Source: Ardenticatenaceae bacterium (lineage in GTDB: Bacteria > Chloroflexota > Anaerolineae > Ardenticatenales > Ardenticatenaceae). Taken from it: a DNA stretch of 35,760 nt. Shown piece after piece: positions 1-7,452 of this stretch (positions are counted from its first letter, which is position 1; the number at the start of each line of letters is the position of its first letter). The notes beneath the pieces were generated by a model that saw nothing but the letters and a program-made list of their open reading frames with translations, ran no database searches and was not told the origin of the DNA. The stretch spans positions 1-35,760 of the forward strand of contig JALSKA010000002.1 of assembly GCA_026989095.1 (NCBI GenBank), given 5' to 3'. Position numbers and translations under genes: made by a program.

Positions 1-639
1 GCCTTCAACGAGGCCACTGTGGACGCGGTGGAGAGCATCGTGCAGCAGCGCGAGGCCCAGTACCAGGAGTTGCTGGAGCAGGCCAACCGCCGCCTGCAAC
101 AGGCATACGCCAAGCAGGAGGAGCTGGCCCGCATTGCCCAGGAGGCCCAGGCGGCGCAGGCCCAGGCCGAGCAGCTAGCCCAGCAACTGGCCGAGCAGCT
201 CGCCGCCCTCCAGGCCGCCCAGGCCCAGGCGACCGCTCAGGCCCAGGCGCAACAGGCCCAAGCTCAGACGGCCGGCCGCCAGGCCGCCCAGCCCCCGGCG
301 CCCTCCTACGCCGTCTCGCCCGAGCAGGCCGCGCAGATCGCCCAGTCCGTGGCTAACGGCGCGACGCTCACCAAGCAGCCCGAGCTCGTCCTCTTCGAGG
401 GCACGCCGGCCTACGAGGTGGGGTTTGACCGGGGCATGATTTACGTGGATGCCAACACCGGTGCTATACTCTACAACGGCACCGTCCCTCCGCCCCCACC
501 CCCCCAGCAGACGCGCTACGACGATGATGACTATGAGGATGACGACGACGAATATGAGCGCGAACGGCGCGACGACGATGACGACGACGATGATGACGAC
601 GACCGGTTCGAGGACGAACGCGAAGATGACGACGATTGA
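1..639 (+). CDS. PepSY-like protein with coiled coil and Asp-rich tail (5' end missing)
   Basis: The reading frame is open from base 1, so the N-terminus lies outside the window; 212 codons are visible and end in TGA. The visible order is a Gln/Ala-rich heptad-like coiled coil over about the first 95 residues, a PepSY-like domain of about 60 residues (ending YVDANTGAILY), a run of prolines, and a C-terminal tail of about 40 residues that is almost all Asp/Glu with some Arg. PepSY domains occur in exported proteins and beside flavin or haem reductases; their exact role is often unknown. The next gene repeats the PepSY-linker-acid layout, so the two look like paralogues. Any signal peptide would be off the window. 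The acidic tail may bind cations, which is inference. I do not recognise a named family for the full protein. Confidence 0.75.
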   Translation, partial: AFNEATVDAVESIVQQREAQYQELLEQANRRLQQAYAKQEELARIAQEAQAAQAQAEQLAQQLAEQLAALQAAQAQATAQAQAQQAQAQTAGRQAAQPPAPSYAVSPEQAAQIAQSVANGATLTKQPELVLFEGTPAYEVGFDRGMIYVDANTGAILYNGTVPPPPPPQQTRYDDDDYEDDDDEYERERRDDDDDDDDDDDRFEDEREDDDD

Positions 640-664
640 GCCGGGCCGGACCCCCGTGAACCAC

Positions 665-707
665 AGGGCCCCTGGCCGGTGCTCTGGGAAGACAGGGGCC
701 CTTCTTT
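665..707 (+). terminator. Probable intrinsic terminator after the first PepSY gene
   Basis: A 10-base inverted repeat (AGGGCCCCTG at 665-674 and CAGGGGCCCT at 693-702) encloses an 18-base loop and is followed by TCTTTCC. It lies 26 bases after the stop codon of the first gene. The T tract is short and interrupted, so termination may be partial. The remaining bases up to 802 hold an isolated TTGACA at 735-740, with no convincing -10 box at a normal distance. Confidence 0.55.
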
Positions 708-802
708 CCCCGGCCCTTCGACGGACACCGCACGTTGACATCGCGGCCCAACGGGTAAACAGGGCGTAAGCGGAGAACTCGGGGTACGCCACAGGGACAC
801 AG

Positions 803-1636
803 ATGCTCAAGAGCACACTTGACACGATCCGGGCGTTGTTGTTGGGACTGGTGGTGGCCGCCGTCTTCTTTGCCGGGCTCACCACCGGCACGCAGTTGGG
901 GCGGGTGCCCAGGGCCCACACTGACCGCACCCCGACGCCTGACCTGGCGGCCACGATTTCCGCCCTGGAGGCCCGTGTCGAGGAGCTCTTGCGGGGCACG
1001 CCGGCTCGCTCCGGCGCGGAGACGGCGCCCACGCCCGCCCGGCTCACCCCATCGGCCACGCCGACGTTGCGCGTGGTGACCCGCGCCACTGTCGAGGGCA
1101 CGTGGGGCAGCGTCGAACGGGACCGCGCCGTCGAAATCGCGCGCGAGTACGTGGGCGGGGGCGAGGTAGTTCAGGTGCAGCAGGAGCGCAAGTACGGCAC
1201 AGTGGTGCTGGAGGTGGAGTTCAGGCACGGAAGCGAAGTCTACGTGGACATGCAGAGCGGCCGAGTGCTCTACGCCGAGGTCAACCCGGCCGACCGGGCG
1301 CCCACCTCCACGCCCGTGCCGCCGCTGACGCCCACACCCCCGCCCACGGCCACGACTGCACCCACGCCCGTGCCGCCGACGCCGACGCCGGAGCCCCCGC
1401 CGCCGCCCGCCGACAACGATCAGGGCGAGGAGGAAGGTGACAGTCAGGGGCAGGAAAGTGCCCCGCCTGCCGGGGACGACCGGGACGAGGGCGCAGAAGC
1501 CTCGCCGCCTCCTCCCCCCGCCCCGCCGCCGGACGACAGGGAAGATGAAGAGGACGACGGGCAGCGGGACGACGGCGAGGATCACGACGACGAACCTGAC
1601 GACGAAGACGAAGATGAAAACGACGATGACGACTGA
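803..1636 (+). CDS. Membrane-anchored PepSY-like protein with Pro/Thr linker and acidic tail
   Basis: This is a 277-residue protein. Residues about 8-30 form a hydrophobic signal anchor, after which the chain is probably outside the membrane. A short heptad-like segment (about 50-68) precedes a PepSY-like domain at about 108-170, which contains the typical VYVDMQSGRVLY ending. Then come a Pro/Thr-rich linker with repeated PTP units and a strongly acidic C-terminus (about 200-277, Asp/Glu/Gln-rich, ending in an Asp run). The ATG at 803 has a weak AGGG upstream; no better start exists that keeps the membrane anchor. The layout matches the preceding gene. The neighbours are an ApbE flavin transferase and a ferric-reductase-like protein, so a surface redox or metal-handling role is plausible but not shown. 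Confidence 0.75.
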   Translation: MLKSTLDTIRALLLGLVVAAVFFAGLTTGTQLGRVPRAHTDRTPTPDLAATISALEARVEELLRGTPARSGAETAPTPARLTPSATPTLRVVTRATVEGTWGSVERDRAVEIAREYVGGGEVVQVQQERKYGTVVLEVEFRHGSEVYVDMQSGRVLYAEVNPADRAPTSTPVPPLTPTPPPTATTAPTPVPPTPTPEPPPPPADNDQGEEEGDSQGQESAPPAGDDRDEGAEASPPPPPAPPPDDREDEEDDGQRDDGEDHDDEPDDEDEDENDDDD

Positions 1637-1678: not shown

Positions 1679-2188
1679 ATGGCAACGGTGAAGAAGAAAA
1701 AACAGAAGCGAACCACAGGCATCTCGGACAGCCTGAAGACGCTGATCACCGTGGCCTCGGTGGCGGGCACATTGGCGGGCTGGGGCATTCTGGCCCGCGC
1801 CGACGGGAACGAGGCCCAGGCCGCGCCCGAGCCCGTCTCGACGCTCCCGCCGCCGACGCCCACACAGGCCGCCACGCCGACGCCCTGGTCCACGCCGACG
1901 CCGGACTTGGCCGCCCTGCAGGCCCAATGGCAGCGGGAGATCGAACAACTGGTCAACACCCTCCCGCCCATTCCCACATTGGTGCCCGCGCCGGACGTGC
2001 CCGAGGTGCAGGTCAAGCCGCCGGCCCAGATCACCGTGCCCACCATTCAGGTGCCGGCACCACCGCCGCCAGCGCCGGCTAACAGCGGGGCAGGGGCTTC
2101 CCCGCCACCGCCGCCTCAGCAGCTCAGGTCGGTGAGCGCGCCGCCCCCGCCGCCACCGCCTCCGCCCAGGACGAGCTCGTCGCGGTGA
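1679..2188 (+). CDS. Single-span membrane protein with long proline-rich extracytoplasmic part
   Basis: The 169-residue product has a Lys-rich N-terminus (MATVKKKKQKR), one hydrophobic segment at about residues 19-40, and then a low-complexity region rich in Pro, Thr, Ala and Gln that ends in a polyproline run and RTSSSR. I chose the ATG at 1679 because GGAGGA at 1667-1672 sits six bases before it; in-frame starts at 1661 and 1664 lie upstream of that site. No PepSY domain, acidic tail or FMN-binding motif is visible. It lies 42 bases after the second PepSY gene and 21 bases before apbE, so it is probably co-transcribed with them. The function is unknown; a structural or wall-spanning linker partner is possible. 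Confidence 0.7.
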   Translation: MATVKKKKQKRTTGISDSLKTLITVASVAGTLAGWGILARADGNEAQAAPEPVSTLPPPTPTQAATPTPWSTPTPDLAALQAQWQREIEQLVNTLPPIPTLVPAPDVPEVQVKPPAQITVPTIQVPAPPPPAPANSGAGASPPPPPQQLRSVSAPPPPPPPPPRTSSSR

Positions 2189-2209: not shown

Positions 2210-3154
2210 ATGCTCCTGCTCCACTTTCGCGCCATGGGATGTCAGATGGAGGCCCGCCTGGACTCGGACAAGCCGGGAGCACACATGCTGTTGGCCTGGA
2301 TCCCCGTCTGGTTCGAGGTCTGGGAGAGCATTCTGAGCCGCTTCCGGCCGGACAGCGAGCTCTCGCGGCTCAACGCCCAGGCGGGCCGGGGGCCGGTGGA
2401 GGTCTCCACGGTGCTCTGGGATGTGCTCCGGGAGGCGCTGGAGGCGGCCGAGGCCAGCGGCGGGCTGGTGGTGCCCACGGTGCTGCCGGCCTTGGCCGCG
2501 GCAGGCTACACCGATTCCTTCGAGCTCGTGGCCGGCCGGCGATGGGTGGAGCAGGGGCCGACGGCTCGCGCGCCGGTCAACGCCGTGGGGGCGTGGCGCC
2601 GCATCGAGCTCGACGGGCGCCGGCGCACAGTCGCCTTGCCACCCGGCGTCCAACTCGACTTGGGCGGGGTTGCCAAGGGGTGGGCGGCCGAGGAGGCGGC
2701 CCGCAAGTTGGCCCGCCACGCGCCGGCCCTGGTGAACGCGGGGGGAGACATCGCCGTCAGCGGGCCCCAACGGGACGGCTCCCCCTGGACTGTGGCCGTC
2801 GCCGACCCCTTTCACCCGGACCGCGACCTGGCCCACATCAGGCTCTACCGTGGGGCCGTGGCCACATCGGGGCGCGACTACCGGCGTTGGCGGTGGGGCA
2901 CGGGGTGGAAGCACCACATCATCGACCCGCGCAGCGGCGCGCCGGCCGAGACGGACTTGATCAGCGTGACGGCCGTTGCCGAGGGGGCCACGCGCGCGGA
3001 GATGGCCGCCAAGGCGGTCTTGATCTTGGGCACAGACGAGGGGCTGCGCTGGCTGGCGCAGCACCCCGACGTGGCCGCCCTCCTCGTGCGGGAGGACGGT
3101 GAGGTGATCGCAAGCGCAACGTGGTCGAAGTACGTCGAGGGGGAAGGAGGGTAA
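2210..3154 (+). CDS. apbE: ApbE-type FAD:protein FMN transferase
   Basis: The 314-residue protein matches the ApbE/Ftp family, which uses FAD and Mg2+ to attach FMN covalently to a Ser/Thr in partner flavoproteins outside the cytoplasm. Family motifs are in order: SRFRPDSELSRLN near residues 43-55, LDLGGVAKGWAAE near 150-162, ALVNAGGDI near 173-181, HHIIDPRSGAP near 235-245, and an Ala-rich helix (GATRAEMAAKAVLILG) near 259-274. No lipoprotein Cys or clear signal peptide is seen, so the protein could be cytoplasmic or rely on an unrecognised export signal. A strong GGAGG precedes the ATG. The gene is 3 bases from the cyclase gene. No FMN-acceptor domain is visible in the window, so its substrate is probably encoded upstream or elsewhere. 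Confidence 0.88.
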   Translation: MLLLHFRAMGCQMEARLDSDKPGAHMLLAWIPVWFEVWESILSRFRPDSELSRLNAQAGRGPVEVSTVLWDVLREALEAAEASGGLVVPTVLPALAAAGYTDSFELVAGRRWVEQGPTARAPVNAVGAWRRIELDGRRRTVALPPGVQLDLGGVAKGWAAEEAARKLARHAPALVNAGGDIAVSGPQRDGSPWTVAVADPFHPDRDLAHIRLYRGAVATSGRDYRRWRWGTGWKHHIIDPRSGAPAETDLISVTAVAEGATRAEMAAKAVLILGTDEGLRWLAQHPDVAALLVREDGEVIASATWSKYVEGEGG

Positions 3155-3157
3155 AAC

Positions 3158-4393
3158 ATGCAGCCCACGACATTCCGCCAGCGCTTTTGGAGCGCCCTGC
3201 TCACCAATTCCCTGCACTACCCCGTGCTCAACTTGTTGCTCGAGTGGTTGGTTATCTCCCACGCGGCCTTCTTCTTCAGGGTGGACCCGTACCTGATCGT
3301 AACGGCCGCGGCGATTCAGGCCGCTGTGCTGGCCATGCCGGCCGTCGAGGAACGAGCCCTTCGGGTGTTGGGGGCCAACTTGGTGGGCCCCGCCGTGTAC
3401 ACGGCCGTGGAGATGTTAATGGAGGGCATGGAGTTCTGGGACAAGCCCAACCACGTGCTCTACTGGGTCTACAGCCTGATCATCGGCCTCTTCGCCGCCT
3501 GGCGGGCGCGGGTGCCCGAGTGCCGCGTGGCCATTTTCGGCGCCTACTTGGCCCGCGCCGTGGTGCTCCTGGCCGTGTACGCCGTCGGCGAGTATTTCAC
3601 CACGCCCACCATGCCGTTGATGCACTGGGTGCAAGACCCCACCCATGCCTTTCTGGGCGCGGCCGTGCCCCTCTTGGGCATCGTGGGCGCCTTGGCCGAC
3701 GTGAACGCCCAGCGTTACATGCTCCTCCTCCAGGACGCCAACCGCCGGCTCCAGACTTACGCGGAGTGGTTCTTCGGCAAACGGCTCTTCCGGGAATTGG
3801 TCGAGAACCCCAGGGCCGGCGAGCCCCGCCGGCAACAGCGGGCCATTTTCTTCAGCGACGTGCGCGGCTTCACGGCCTGGAGCGAGGAGCGCACGCCCGA
3901 GGCCCTCATGGAGGCCCTTCAGGCGTGGTACCTGGCTGCGGAGGAGGTGTGGGAGCGCTGCCGCCCGGTGCGCTACAAGTTCACCGCCGATGAGGTCATG
4001 GCCGTCTTCGCCAGCGTGGAGGAGGCCGCGCGGGCAGCTCTCCTGTTCCGCCGGGTGAGCGAGTCCATTTGGCAGCCCCACGGTCTCTCCGTCGGCATCG
4101 GCATTCACTGGGGGCCGGTCGTGGAGGGGTTGATCGGCGGGCGCGAGGTGAAGTATTACGATGTGATCGGCGACACCGTGAACACGGCCCAGCGCATCGA
4201 AAAGGGCGCCCGGCAAGGTGAAATCCTGATCTCGGAGAAAGCGTACCGACGGCTTCCGCCCGAGTTCGAGGCAGGCCCCCTGATGACCATCGCCGTGAAG
4301 GACAAGCCCCACTTGCAGGTGCGCGCTCTGCGCGGCCAGGTGGAGCGCGGAACAACCCAGGAATACGTGGAGACACAGGAGGCGTTGGCATGA
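3158..4393 (+). CDS. Membrane-anchored class III adenylate/guanylate cyclase
   Basis: The 411-residue protein has about six hydrophobic segments between residues 20 and 182, a short linker helix (ANRRLQTYAEWFFGKR), and a class III cyclase domain at about 226-390. Visible catalytic residues are metal ligands D234 (in FFSDVRGFT) and D278, K274, D335 in YDVIGDTVN, N342 and R346. Lys at 274 and Asp at 335 are the pair expected for ATP, so cAMP production is predicted. The usual Gly before the second metal Asp is Ala (KFTADEV). AAGGAGGG precedes the ATG. The stop overlaps the next start by 4 bases (ATGA), so translation is probably coupled to the haem membrane protein. That context suggests cyclase output tied to envelope redox state, which is inference. 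Confidence 0.88.
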   Translation: MQPTTFRQRFWSALLTNSLHYPVLNLLLEWLVISHAAFFFRVDPYLIVTAAAIQAAVLAMPAVEERALRVLGANLVGPAVYTAVEMLMEGMEFWDKPNHVLYWVYSLIIGLFAAWRARVPECRVAIFGAYLARAVVLLAVYAVGEYFTTPTMPLMHWVQDPTHAFLGAAVPLLGIVGALADVNAQRYMLLLQDANRRLQTYAEWFFGKRLFRELVENPRAGEPRRQQRAIFFSDVRGFTAWSEERTPEALMEALQAWYLAAEEVWERCRPVRYKFTADEVMAVFASVEEAARAALLFRRVSESIWQPHGLSVGIGIHWGPVVEGLIGGREVKYYDVIGDTVNTAQRIEKGARQGEILISEKAYRRLPPEFEAGPLMTIAVKDKPHLQVRALRGQVERGTTQEYVETQEALA

Positions 4394-5196
4394 CGACCGC
4401 ACAGGGATTCCAGGACTTCGACCAATATCCGCCGGCCGTGGCCTTTCAGACGGTCATGTTGATGTTGCTCGCCGCGGCCCTGGGAGCCATTGCAGCCGTC
4501 TTCGTAGTGCCCACGTGGCTGCCGGGACTTTCGGCCTCCCTCTTCGGCGAGAGCCCCAAGGTTTACTGGTACCTGGCCCGTTCCAGCGGGGTGACGGCCT
4601 ACGTGCTCCTCTGGCTCTCAATGGCCTTCGGCGTGATGATGACCAACAAGATGGCCCGGGTGTGGCCCGGCGGCCCCACGGCCTTCGACTTGCACCAGTA
4701 CACCAGCTTGCTCGGGCTGACCTTTGCCCTGTTCCATGCTATCATTCTGCTGGGCGACAAGTACATTGAAGCCGGCCTGGCCAACGTGCTCGTGCCCTTC
4801 GGCTACACGGGATACCGCCCCCTGTGGGTGGGCGTCGGCCAGGTGGCCTTTTACGTGATGGCTGTGGTCGCCCTCAGCTTCTACGTGCGGCAGCTCATCG
4901 GCCGTCGCCTCTGGCGGCTGATTCACTACTTGAGCTTCGTGACCTTTGCCGGCGCCCTGGCCCACGGCATCATGGCCGGCACGGACACGGCCACGCCCTT
5001 CATGCAGGGGCTCTACTGGGCCACCGGAGGGCTCCTGCTCTTCCTGGCGCTCTACCGAGTCATCGTGAGCGCGTGGGGCCGACGCCAGAAGGCGGCCCGC
5101 CGGCGGGCACACGCGCAGGCGGAGGGTGTCCGTCCGCCTTCCCGAAACCACCGGGGACATGCGCAGGAGCAGGTGCAGGCCGGGGCACAGGGGTGA
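4390..5196 (+). CDS. Ferric-reductase-like transmembrane haem protein
   Basis: The 268-residue protein has six predicted membrane helices (about 19-41, 60-85, 103-123, 145-166, 178-197, 207-228) and a basic, Gln-rich cytoplasmic tail. Four histidines lie in the pattern of the ferric reductase/NADPH oxidase/MsrQ haem core: H102 and H116 on one helix, H179 and H192 on another. These should hold two b-type haems and pass electrons across the membrane. No FAD or NAD(P)H domain is fused, so electrons must come from a separate partner. Its start overlaps the cyclase stop by 4 bases. With apbE and the PepSY proteins nearby, transfer between the quinone pool or a flavoprotein and an outside acceptor is likely, but neither the direction nor the acceptor can be read from the sequence. 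Confidence 0.82.
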   Translation: MTTAQGFQDFDQYPPAVAFQTVMLMLLAAALGAIAAVFVVPTWLPGLSASLFGESPKVYWYLARSSGVTAYVLLWLSMAFGVMMTNKMARVWPGGPTAFDLHQYTSLLGLTFALFHAIILLGDKYIEAGLANVLVPFGYTGYRPLWVGVGQVAFYVMAVVALSFYVRQLIGRRLWRLIHYLSFVTFAGALAHGIMAGTDTATPFMQGLYWATGGLLLFLALYRVIVSAWGRRQKAARRRAHAQAEGVRPPSRNHRGHAQEQVQAGAQG

Positions 5197-5213: not shown

Positions 5214-5972
5214 ATGACCCGCTCCGATCACCAGGCGACCATCCTGCTCATTGAGGACAACGCCGAAATTGCCGAGCCCCTTGCCTTCGGGCTCCAGCAG
5301 GAGGGCTACCGAGTTCTCCACGCCCGGACGGGGGAGGAGGGGGTACAGTTGGCCCGCGAGCACCGCCCGGACCTCGTGTTGCTCGACATCATGCTCCCGG
5401 GCGTGGACGGCTTCCACGTCTGTCGGACCCTGCGCGCGGAGTCGAGCGTGCCCATCCTGATGCTCACCGCCCGCTCCCAGGAGCTCGACCGGGTGATGGG
5501 CCTGGAGCTGGGCGCCGACGATTACATCACCAAGCCCTTCAGCTTCAGGGAGCTGGTGGCGCGCGTGCGGGCCATGTTGCGCCGGCGCGACTTGGACCGC
5601 GCGGAGTGGCAGTCGGCCGGCGGGGAGAAGGGCGAGGCATCACCCCACGTGCTCCGCCTGCACGACCTGCGCCTCGACCTGCAGGCCCGCTTGGCCTGGC
5701 AGGGGGAGCGGCAGTTGGCCCTCTCGAGCCGGGAGTTCGACCTGTTGGCCCACCTGATGCGCCACGCTGGCGAGGCGCTGCACCGCCAGGCCATTTTGGA
5801 CGCCGTGTGGGGCGAGGAGTGGGTGGGCGATCCCCGCACGCTCGACGTTCACATCCACTGGCTGCGCGAGAAATTGGGCGATGATCCGGCACATCCGCGC
5901 TATATTCAAACCGTTCGGGGCTACGGCTACCGTTTTCTGGCACCGTCTTCTCCGGCGGGCGAGAAGGCTTGA
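5214..5972 (+). CDS. OmpR/PhoB-family response regulator
   Basis: The 252-residue protein has a receiver domain (about 8-122) with acidic pair E14/D15, phospho-acceptor D58 in LVLLDIMLPG, a conserved Thr in MLTAR and Lys in YITKPF. An OmpR-type winged-helix DNA-binding domain follows (about 140-245, ending YIQTVRGYGYRF). I used the ATG at 5214 (MTRSDHQ) because the receiver domain begins directly after it; the frame stays open far upstream inside the previous gene. It lies 17 bases after the haem-protein gene and overlaps the kinase gene, so it is probably the output half of a pair controlling this cluster. Its target sites cannot be deduced here. Confidence 0.92.
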   Translation: MTRSDHQATILLIEDNAEIAEPLAFGLQQEGYRVLHARTGEEGVQLAREHRPDLVLLDIMLPGVDGFHVCRTLRAESSVPILMLTARSQELDRVMGLELGADDYITKPFSFRELVARVRAMLRRRDLDRAEWQSAGGEKGEASPHVLRLHDLRLDLQARLAWQGERQLALSSREFDLLAHLMRHAGEALHRQAILDAVWGEEWVGDPRTLDVHIHWLREKLGDDPAHPRYIQTVRGYGYRFLAPSSPAGEKA

Positions 5973-7452
5973 GCTTGAACGCCGCTGGCGTGCCCCCAGG
6001 CTGCACGCGCTCCTCCTCTGGCCCTACCTGGTGTTGGCCACGGTGGGCTTGGCCGTCCTGGTGATTTGGGCCGGCCTCATGCTCCAGACGCTGATGATCG
6101 AGAAGGTGGAGCACGAGCTGGAGATCGAGGCGCTGCTGATCGCCAACGCCCTGCGCGATGCCCTCGGAAACTGGGTGGAGGGGGAGTTGCCCTCCGGCCG
6201 GCCCATCGGCAACCTGGTGCTCTCCTACGCCGAGGAGACGCGCTCCCGCATCATCGTGGCCCTGCCCGACGGTTCCATCGTCTTCAGCTCCGACCCGGAC
6301 ACGCCCTTGGAGGCGCTGCCCTCCAGCGTGGAGCTGCGGGCCGCCCTGGCCCTGACCGAACAGCACAACATTCGCCCCGACGATTTCGGCTCCGGCCAAT
6401 TGCGCCTCTACACGGCTGCCCCGGTGGTCCAAGGGGATCAGGTGTTGGGCCTGGTGCAGCTTTCCGTCCCCTACGGCCCCATTCAACGGGAGATTCAGGC
6501 CATGTGGCTACGGCTGATCCTCGTCAGCGCTGGCCTGGTGGCCGCCATCGGGTTCGCCAGTGTCCTGTTGGCCCGGCGGCTCTCGGCCCCGATCCGCCAC
6601 CTGACCGAGATGGCCGACCGCATGGCCCGAGGTGACCTGGAAGCCCCCGTTCGGCCCCATGGTCCCCACGAGATCCGCCGGTTGGCCGTGGCCTTCGAGA
6701 CGATGGCGCGCCGCGTGCGGGAGATGTTGGCCCAGCAGCGCCAGTTCGTGGACAACGCGGCCCACGAGTTGCGCTCGCCCCTGGCGAGCATTCGGCTGCG
6801 CATTGACATGTTGGCGCGCTTGGCCAACGGGCACGCCGGGAACCGGGAGCGCTTCGAGCGCTACCTGCGGGAGACGGAGGCGCAATTGGCCGGGCTGGAG
6901 CAGCTCGTCAACGACTTGCTGCTCCTCTCATCCGTGGAAGAGGAGGAGATGCCCGCCGCTCTCTTGGACCTGTCGCCGCTGCTCTACGAGCTGGCCGATG
7001 AGATGGCCCCCCTGGTGCGGGAGAAGGCCCACCGCCTGGTGCTGGAAGTGCCTCCCCACTTGCCCCCGGTGAAGGGCAACGAGACTTACCTGCGCGTGGC
7101 CGTGCGCAACCTGTTGGACAACGCCATCAAGTACACGCCTGCGGGGGGCACAATCACGCTACGGGCTCGCGCCGAGGCTGGCGAGGTGATCGTGGAGGTG
7201 GAGGACACGGGGCCGGGCATCCCGGATGAGGAGGTGGCCCACGTCTTCGACCGCTTCTACCGCAGCCGAGCGGCTCGGGGGTCCCGAATCACCGGCGTGG
7301 GGTTGGGGCTGGCGCTGGTTCACACGATCGTCACCCGCCACGGTGGCCGGGTGGGCGTGGAGAGCCGCCCCGGCGCCGGCACCTGCTTCCGCATCTACCT
7401 GCCCACGGCACAACACAACCCTCCCGCAGGTGCCGACCCCGCGGGAGGGTGA
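5881..7452 (+). CDS. Sensor histidine kinase paired with the preceding regulator
   Basis: This 523-residue frame has a first membrane helix at about 46-70, an extracytoplasmic sensor segment to about 209 without a recognised named domain, a second helix at about 210-230, HAMP at about 231-283, and a HisKA domain with phospho-acceptor H295 in NAAHELRSPLA. The ATPase domain has an N box (NLLDNAIKYTP, 410-420), a G1 box (DTGPGIP) and a G2 box (GVGLGLALV). The only in-frame ATG before the first helix is at 5881, inside the regulator gene, giving a 92-base overlap and a basic 40-residue N-terminal extension; its ribosome site is poor. A rare start nearer the helix, such as CTG at 6001, cannot be excluded. 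The C-terminal tail (NPPAGADPAGG) is encoded by a hairpin. Confidence 0.9.
   Translation: MIRHIRAIFKPFGATATVFWHRLLRRARRLELERRWRAPRLHALLLWPYLVLATVGLAVLVIWAGLMLQTLMIEKVEHELEIEALLIANALRDALGNWVEGELPSGRPIGNLVLSYAEETRSRIIVALPDGSIVFSSDPDTPLEALPSSVELRAALALTEQHNIRPDDFGSGQLRLYTAAPVVQGDQVLGLVQLSVPYGPIQREIQAMWLRLILVSAGLVAAIGFASVLLARRLSAPIRHLTEMADRMARGDLEAPVRPHGPHEIRRLAVAFETMARRVREMLAQQRQFVDNAAHELRSPLASIRLRIDMLARLANGHAGNRERFERYLRETEAQLAGLEQLVNDLLLLSSVEEEEMPAALLDLSPLLYELADEMAPLVREKAHRLVLEVPPHLPPVKGNETYLRVAVRNLLDNAIKYTPAGGTITLRARAEAGEVIVEVEDTGPGIPDEEVAHVFDRFYRSRAARGSRITGVGLGLALVHTIVTRHGGRVGVESRPGAGTCFRIYLPTAQHNPPAGADPAGG
7418..7450. terminator. Hairpin between convergent kinase and rpsI genes
   Basis: ACCCTCCCGC (7418-7427) and GCGGGAGGGT (7441-7450) form a perfect 10-base stem with a 13-base loop. 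It lies inside the last codons of the kinase gene and ends on the first base of its TGA. In the minus direction it follows rpsI by 29 bases and is followed by TGTGTTGTG. It is the only strong hairpin between the two convergent operons, so a bidirectional terminator is likely, although neither side has a clean T run. Confidence 0.55.

Follow-up and report, generated by a model that had tools for sequence, protein, structure and literature searches.

Several described systems share parts of the locus reported here. In the MsrQ-like flavinylation-associated clusters, as characterized in the relevant sections of Meheust et al. (2021, PMC8238504), a ferric-reductase-like protein of family PF01794 (hereafter FRD) adjoins apbE, typically together with a gene for an FMN-binding domain; some of these clusters also hold VIT1 or a NuoF-like protein, and those with VIT1 are read there as iron reductases. 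The PepSY_TM reductases, such as FoxB and the proposed copper reductase CrpH, combine PepSY domains outside the membrane with a four-histidine di-haem core, and the part of PMC13038864 that deals with FoxB describes two PepSY domains flanked by haem-binding helices. Single PepSY proteins of the YpmB/YpeB type consist of a membrane anchor and the same fold, and the metal reductases related to NADPH oxidase, STEAP and cytochrome b561 have a six-helix fold with haem-ligand histidines. Finally, there are small iron-binding proteins with an acidic C-terminus, among them Mms6, which is reported to bind ferric ions. In the open-access literature we found no paper that joins genes for a PepSY protein, the small membrane protein that we call ORF3, ApbE and FRD.

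The locus described here shares features with each of these systems and departs from each. A PF01794 protein lies in a cluster with apbE, as in the MsrQ-like clusters, but the FMN-binding gene typical of those clusters is missing (FMN_bind, PF04205, is absent from 16 of 17 genomes, that of the window included); ORF3, with its conserved C-terminal motif, takes the FMN_bind place in the gene order, and acidic-ended PepSY proteins are added. In FoxB-type reductases the PepSY domain is nested between haem-binding transmembrane helices, whereas here PepSY and haem core are separate proteins, which hints at a metal reductase of the PepSY_TM sort divided between two chains. Unlike NADPH oxidase, STEAP and cytochrome b561 as a group, the FRD chain of the window carries no NAD(P)H or FAD domain; compared with YpmB/YpeB-type proteins, the acidic tail and the redox operon occur only here; and Mms6, which belongs to a magnetosome context, is likened by description and not by sequence.

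The window, that is, the whole stretch of 35,760 nucleotides that was analyzed, is the entire contig C2 of a genome available as a draft in 262 contigs, whose named close relatives are Ardenticatenia. All the genes considered lie on the forward strand. The type A PepSY protein, ORF1 (1..639), is followed by the type B protein, ORF2 (803..1636), and 3' of it by ORF3 (1679..2188), an ApbE without a signal peptide (2210..3154; PF02424, E 4.5e-58), a membrane adenylate/guanylate cyclase (3158..4393; PF00211), FRD (4390..5196), a response regulator (5214..5972) and a sensor histidine kinase (5881..7452; PF02518, PF00512, PF00672). The cyclase between apbE and FRD is an insertion seen only in Ardenticatenia loci. 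The first codons of ORF1 lie upstream on contig C29 of the same genome (G000), the end of which overlaps the start of the window by about 222 bases with one mismatch. Directly 5' of ORF1 on that contig is a P-type cation ATPase (G000:C29:611-3472, locus L009), which has both the N-terminal and the C-terminal module of cation ATPases and would suit Ca2+ too, with a response regulator and a kinase beyond it; in a relative's locus (L057) the ATPase, ORF1 and ORF2 stand together on one contig. We rejected the ATPase as a component of the system, as it adjoins ORF1 only in this genome and in G002.

Both PepSY proteins have the architecture that the initial annotation proposed, a PepSY domain followed by a proline linker and an acidic tail, and the domain assignment holds up by profile and by fold. 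PF03413 matches ORF1 at 33.7 bits (E 4.6e-8, residues 105-157, nucleotides 313..471) and ORF2 at 31.8 bits (E 1.8e-7, residues 106-157, nucleotides 1118..1273), against a Pfam gathering cut-off of 24 bits, and these are the only two PepSY matches in the genome. Each protein has one hydrophobic stretch, an N-terminal membrane anchor. In ORF1 the order is anchor, long helix, PepSY domain, proline linker and tail, and the AlphaFold model of the part within the window (mean pLDDT 85) shows an 85-residue helix, a confident PepSY fold (pLDDT about 97 over residues 101-160) and a tail predicted to be disordered (pLDDT 53-60). The best solved fold match of this model is Bacillus YpmB (2gu3), with a probability of 1.00 and an rmsd of 2.8 over 64 columns but a Foldseek E of 0.026, and the match to FoxB (PDB 7abw) is weak (probability 0.41). 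The span of 500-1636 first assigned to the pair does contain two proteins, but the PepSY domain of ORF1 precedes position 500 and ORF1 itself begins outside the window. The tail of ORF1 (517..636) has 31 D/E and 5 K/R among 40 residues; in ORF2 a Pro/Thr linker from nucleotide 1283 leads to a 74-residue region (1412..1633) with 38 D/E, 3 K/R and 1 H. Over the last 40 residues the D/E share is 0.775 in ORF1 (31/40) and 0.65 in ORF2 (26/40), and the next highest value among the 47 called genes of the window is 0.25. The tails are not an artefact of a triplet repeat, because the Asp codons are mixed (16 GAC and 8 GAT in ORF1, 19 GAC and 5 GAT in ORF2).

The two PepSY domains share 30% identity over 56 columns (E 5e-7), and the suggestion that they arose by duplication within the cluster did not stand. 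Two PepSY domains in tandem occur in 20 of 70 PepSY proteins, and in the domain tree, which comprises only 64 columns and is too short for finer branching order, all 20 second domains group with ORF2 (support 95/98 in a 28-row set and 99/99 in a 23-row set) and the first domains group with ORF1. The tandem proteins belong to other lineages. By this grouping the paralogy is old, and a recent duplication inside the cluster was rejected. ORF1 and ORF2 thus each match one half of an ancient tandem, with either fusion or fission as the first step.

The surrounding operon is conserved well beyond this genome. A scan of genome contigs gave 123 FRD relatives, and the best 80 of the 123, which were kept, carry the names of Chloroflexota taxa (Ardenticatenia, Anaerolineae, Chloroflexus, Roseiflexus, Oscillochloris, Chloroploca, Thermoflexus and others) with the sole exception of L188, labelled as an uncultured cyanobacterium. 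Among the 58 of these 80 loci with at least 3 kb of upstream sequence, profile HMMs found ApbE in 51, PepSY in 49 and ORF3 in 47; in 13 loci where ORF3 had been missed or was uncertain, reading by eye located such a protein in 10. Every one of the 46 loci in which all four genes were scored has the order PepSY-ORF3-ApbE-FRD, a count that leaves out L193 and L198. In L193 (2494-4194) ApbE and FRD are fused in one open frame of 566 codons. Across 100 relatives, ApbE was present in 22 of 22 genomes with a strong FRD match and in 2 of 78 others (p 4e-20), where strong means below 1e-30 and weaker matches were counted as absent. The genome of the window itself has one ApbE match and one PF01794 match, the latter being FRD, in genome-wide profile searches. 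In three loci of Oscillochloris-type genomes (L178, L190, L199), ORF3 and FRD occur with neither ApbE nor PepSY adjoining. Clustering of the 80 loci also placed a haem-binding CxxCH protein upstream in 8; in L058 (10866-11330), L060 (10309-10884), L063 (10980-11423) and L142 (3760-4227) it lies beside the PepSY gene, and PF14376 was confirmed for L058 and L142 only.

The ferric-reductase-like nature of the neighbouring protein was borne out by family, model and fold. PF01794 matched 10 of 17 FRD members at E 0.01, a search in which the window FRD on its own was not matched, and in the whole-genome search the window FRD scored 28.0 bits, at the cut-off of 28. Its model has six long helices (pLDDT 88), and four histidines (His102, His116, His179 and His192), forming two pairs, are invariant in 58 sequences, an arrangement that would allow binding of two b haems. 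The best PDB matches were a bacterial NADPH oxidase (Z 12.9, rmsd 3.4, 154 aligned), STEAP4 (12.3), STEAP2 (12.1), cytochrome b561 (11.6) and Dcytb (11.2), with a full range of 10.6-12.9; Z values of this size can arise by chance among helical bundles, yet it is the NADPH oxidase, STEAP, b561 and Dcytb rows that top the list. Bis-histidine chemistry is common to NADPH oxidase, STEAP, cytochrome b561 and Dcytb. FoxB was absent among the structure matches listed for FRD.

Based on these comparisons, we consider that the module probably serves electron export. As a whole explanation, that ORF1 and ORF2 act outside the cytoplasm as accessory subunits of an electron-export module in the membrane has, in our estimate, an even chance of being correct. 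Electrons would enter FRD from quinol or from a cytosolic donor, its two b haems would carry them across the membrane, and a flavin, a c-type cytochrome or both would take them up outside. The anchored PepSY domain may dock beside the outer haem of FRD, in the manner of FoxB, where PepSY domains cover the haems, except that here it would do so as a separate protein, and the flexible acidic, often histidine-containing tail could collect a metal, most likely Fe(III) or Cu(II), and offer it for reduction. That a metal is the physiological substrate we put at a little short of an even bet, and that the tails are the part that holds it we propose more tentatively still. The strongest tie to iron is a VIT1 gene in the Psychrobacter relative described below, taken with the VIT1 link published for MsrQ-like clusters in the corresponding section of PMC8238504. 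Several observations count against the explanation as a whole: no metal transporter recurs as a neighbour among the Chloroflexota loci (clustering of 80 loci), the tails are loose in make-up, L071 and L073 lack a recognisable PepSY domain, and the adjoining ATPase would also suit Ca2+.

For the tails we compared 62 PepSY proteins in operon position from 60 loci. The final residue is D or E in 58 of the 62 and the end is DD in 44; the last two residues are both acidic in 49 of the 62, as against 1 of 65 ApbE, 0 of 80 FRD and 0 of 55 ORF3 sequences. D/E makes up at least 20% of the last 40 residues in 54 of 62 and at least 40% in 19, at least three histidines fall within the last 40 residues in 30, and composition is loose, some tails being Gly-rich and others rich in Lys, Glu and His. 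An acidic end is therefore general, and the strictly poly-Asp tail is a feature of the branch of ORF1 and ORF2 and of a few others; the description of the tails as nearly all Asp/Glu fits the two window proteins but does not extend to most relatives. The proposed tie to the reductase gene found strong support. All 12 of the 100 relatives with an ORF1 match have a strong FRD match, and among the PepSY matches in 8 genomes 9 of 11 are operon proteins with a D/E share of 0.325-0.775 in the last 40 residues (of the other two, one has no acidic tail and the frame of the other runs off its locus), but acidic runs do occur, though rarely, in unrelated proteins encoded by these genomes. The variability of the tails (at times Lys- or Gly-rich), their predicted disorder and the acidic runs in unrelated secreted proteins would all suit charged spacers or brushes with no metal function, which might maintain solubility of the PepSY domain, retain the domain within the cell wall or polyanionic surroundings, or dock it to a basic partner. 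We regard this as rather unlikely, in that a spacer would need no fixed end, and the end is fixed to the extent just given. Poly-Asp or D/E-rich stretches were seen in G066:C43 (L118), G004:C4 (L119), G000:C174 (L010) and G000:C208 (L133), some of these proteins having repeated domains and a lipoprotein-like start, and at L071:9577-10170 and L073:9270-10022 a protein with an anchor, a coiled coil and an acidic tail, and no recognisable PepSY domain, occupies the PepSY place in the operon.

The regulatory genes 3' of FRD raise a different prospect, namely that the PepSY protein and its tail form the sensor arm of a two-component system in which the tail binds a cation and PepSY reports to the histidine kinase. 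Response-regulator-like ORFs are found in 50 of the 80 clustered loci and kinase-like ORFs in 44 of 80, in keeping with the pair in the window; yet these genes are missing or inverted in many loci, whereas ORF3, ApbE and FRD keep their order with PepSY, and the Psychrobacter stretch has an upstream gene for an ATP-binding protein but no annotated response regulator, so that we consider a sensory role improbable. Least probable of all, and very much so, is regulation of a cell-wall enzyme by PepSY, as in peptidase propeptides or YpeB/YpmB, with the redox genes merely co-regulated: YpmB is the closest solved fold, but clustering of the 80 loci brought out no peptidase or wall-enzyme gene that recurs nearby, and the linkage to FRD and ApbE is near-perfect.

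Within the electron-export module that we favor, the flavin step would depend on what the operon ApbE modifies. Known ApbE binds Mg2+ through Asp284 and Thr288 (T. pallidum numbering, in the passage of PMC5655446 that names the ligands). Of 64 operon enzymes, 62 have Glu at the first of these positions and 63 have Lys at the second (Glu264 and Lys268 in the window), with the catalytic Ser220 and His236 kept in all 64 and a gate residue Phe in 63. In a further collection of 45 rows of ApbE matches, Glu and Lys occur in 18 of the 21 rows with FRD in the locus, and the 24 rows without FRD comprise 11 with Asp and Thr (8 distinct proteins by our own count), 10 with Glu and Lys and 3 that are cut. 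Among these ten, L250, L252 and L253 are operon copies with the cyclase, in which the short flank ends before FRD; the genomes behind L233-L236 and L242 were reached by way of FRD loci of the Oscillochloris type, and L261 and L272 are unaccounted for. The ApbE linked to FMN_bind in G093 has Asp and Thr. Judged by these residues, the operon ApbE is a distinct kind of ApbE that goes with FRD rather than with FMN_bind.

The known targets of ApbE are not in evidence. Besides the missing FMN_bind, DUF2271 had no match in 9 genomes, and the substrate motif D-x-x-[ST]-G-A-[ST], as worded in the part of PMC12052999 that defines it, occurs in 0 of 60 PepSY, 0 of 55 ORF3 and 0 of 80 FRD sequences. A DANTGAI turn in PepSY agrees with the motif over its first six letters; the acceptor Ser/Thr is missing, however, and the TGA part of the turn varies among relatives, and it was rejected as a flavinylation site together with the outer SSGVT of FRD, which is not conserved. 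An ApbE that merely binds FAD as the electron-input subunit is conceivable and would fit the lack of a signal peptide (a weakly hydrophobic N-terminus is seen in 3 of 66 ApbE sequences) and the in-frame ApbE-FRD fusion, but the catalytic Ser and His are invariant.

ORF3 is, by its sequence features, the best remaining candidate target, because it combines a fixed hydroxyl-bearing tip with a place before apbE. The family, which has no match in Pfam or NCBIfam, has a basic N-terminus, a single hydrophobic stretch, a long variable Pro/Ala-rich linker and a C-terminal T-x-S-S-[RK], the window protein having one transmembrane segment, a Pro-rich linker and the end RTSSSR. T-x-S-S falls within the last nine residues of an upstream same-strand frame in 58 of 73 loci; the corresponding counts are 2 of 73 for the opposite strand and 3 of 54 for downstream frames, and several of the misses, by eye, are cases of position or of S for T. 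Topology was predicted as N-in/C-out in 54 of 54. It is conceivable, though doubtful, that ORF3 is a new, domain-less ApbE substrate, in which the variant enzyme would place FMN on the T-x-S-S tip and the leashed flavin would shuttle electrons from the outer haem of FRD to the metal held by the tail. The lack of a signal peptide on ApbE counts against this, and flavinylation would have to precede export, because the tip is predicted to lie outside. Several loci with ORF3 and FRD and no adjoining ApbE also count against it; in some of these genomes the variant ApbE is found elsewhere, and G101 (locus L178) gave no ApbE match anywhere. Should ORF3 prove to be the target, a folded domain would not be required for flavinylation, flavinylated proteins could be sought more widely, and a short C-terminal tag would be available.

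Our findings thus describe an operon widespread in Chloroflexota, whose ApbE has no recognised target, and which is also present on a plasmid from a gammaproteobacterium and, in part, on Actinomycetota and Bacillota plasmids. The gammaproteobacterial copy, on plasmid PsyG_26 of Psychrobacter sp. G, encodes a PepSY protein ending in EEEYDD (its domain scores 23.9 against the cut-off of 24), a small protein ending in ARTRSSQ, an ApbE with AEVYAK and FRD, and the next gene is of the VIT1 family (E 3.9e-64). No PepSY gene is annotated in the plasmid stretches examined other than that of Psychrobacter. On the Actinomycetota and Bacillota plasmids the ORF directly 5' of ApbE-FRD ends in related tips such as TRAS, TRTS, HTAAS or ARSAGS, as read by eye and without statistics, and in L228 no frame of this kind is among those listed. 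Genes for a NuoF-like protein and a ferredoxin come after FRD on plasmids of Arthrobacter, Gordonia, Rhodococcus and Cnuibacter, and a Streptomyces FRD is fused to FAD/NAD and 2Fe-2S domains (assigned by annotation and by eye), which points to entry of electrons from the cytosol.
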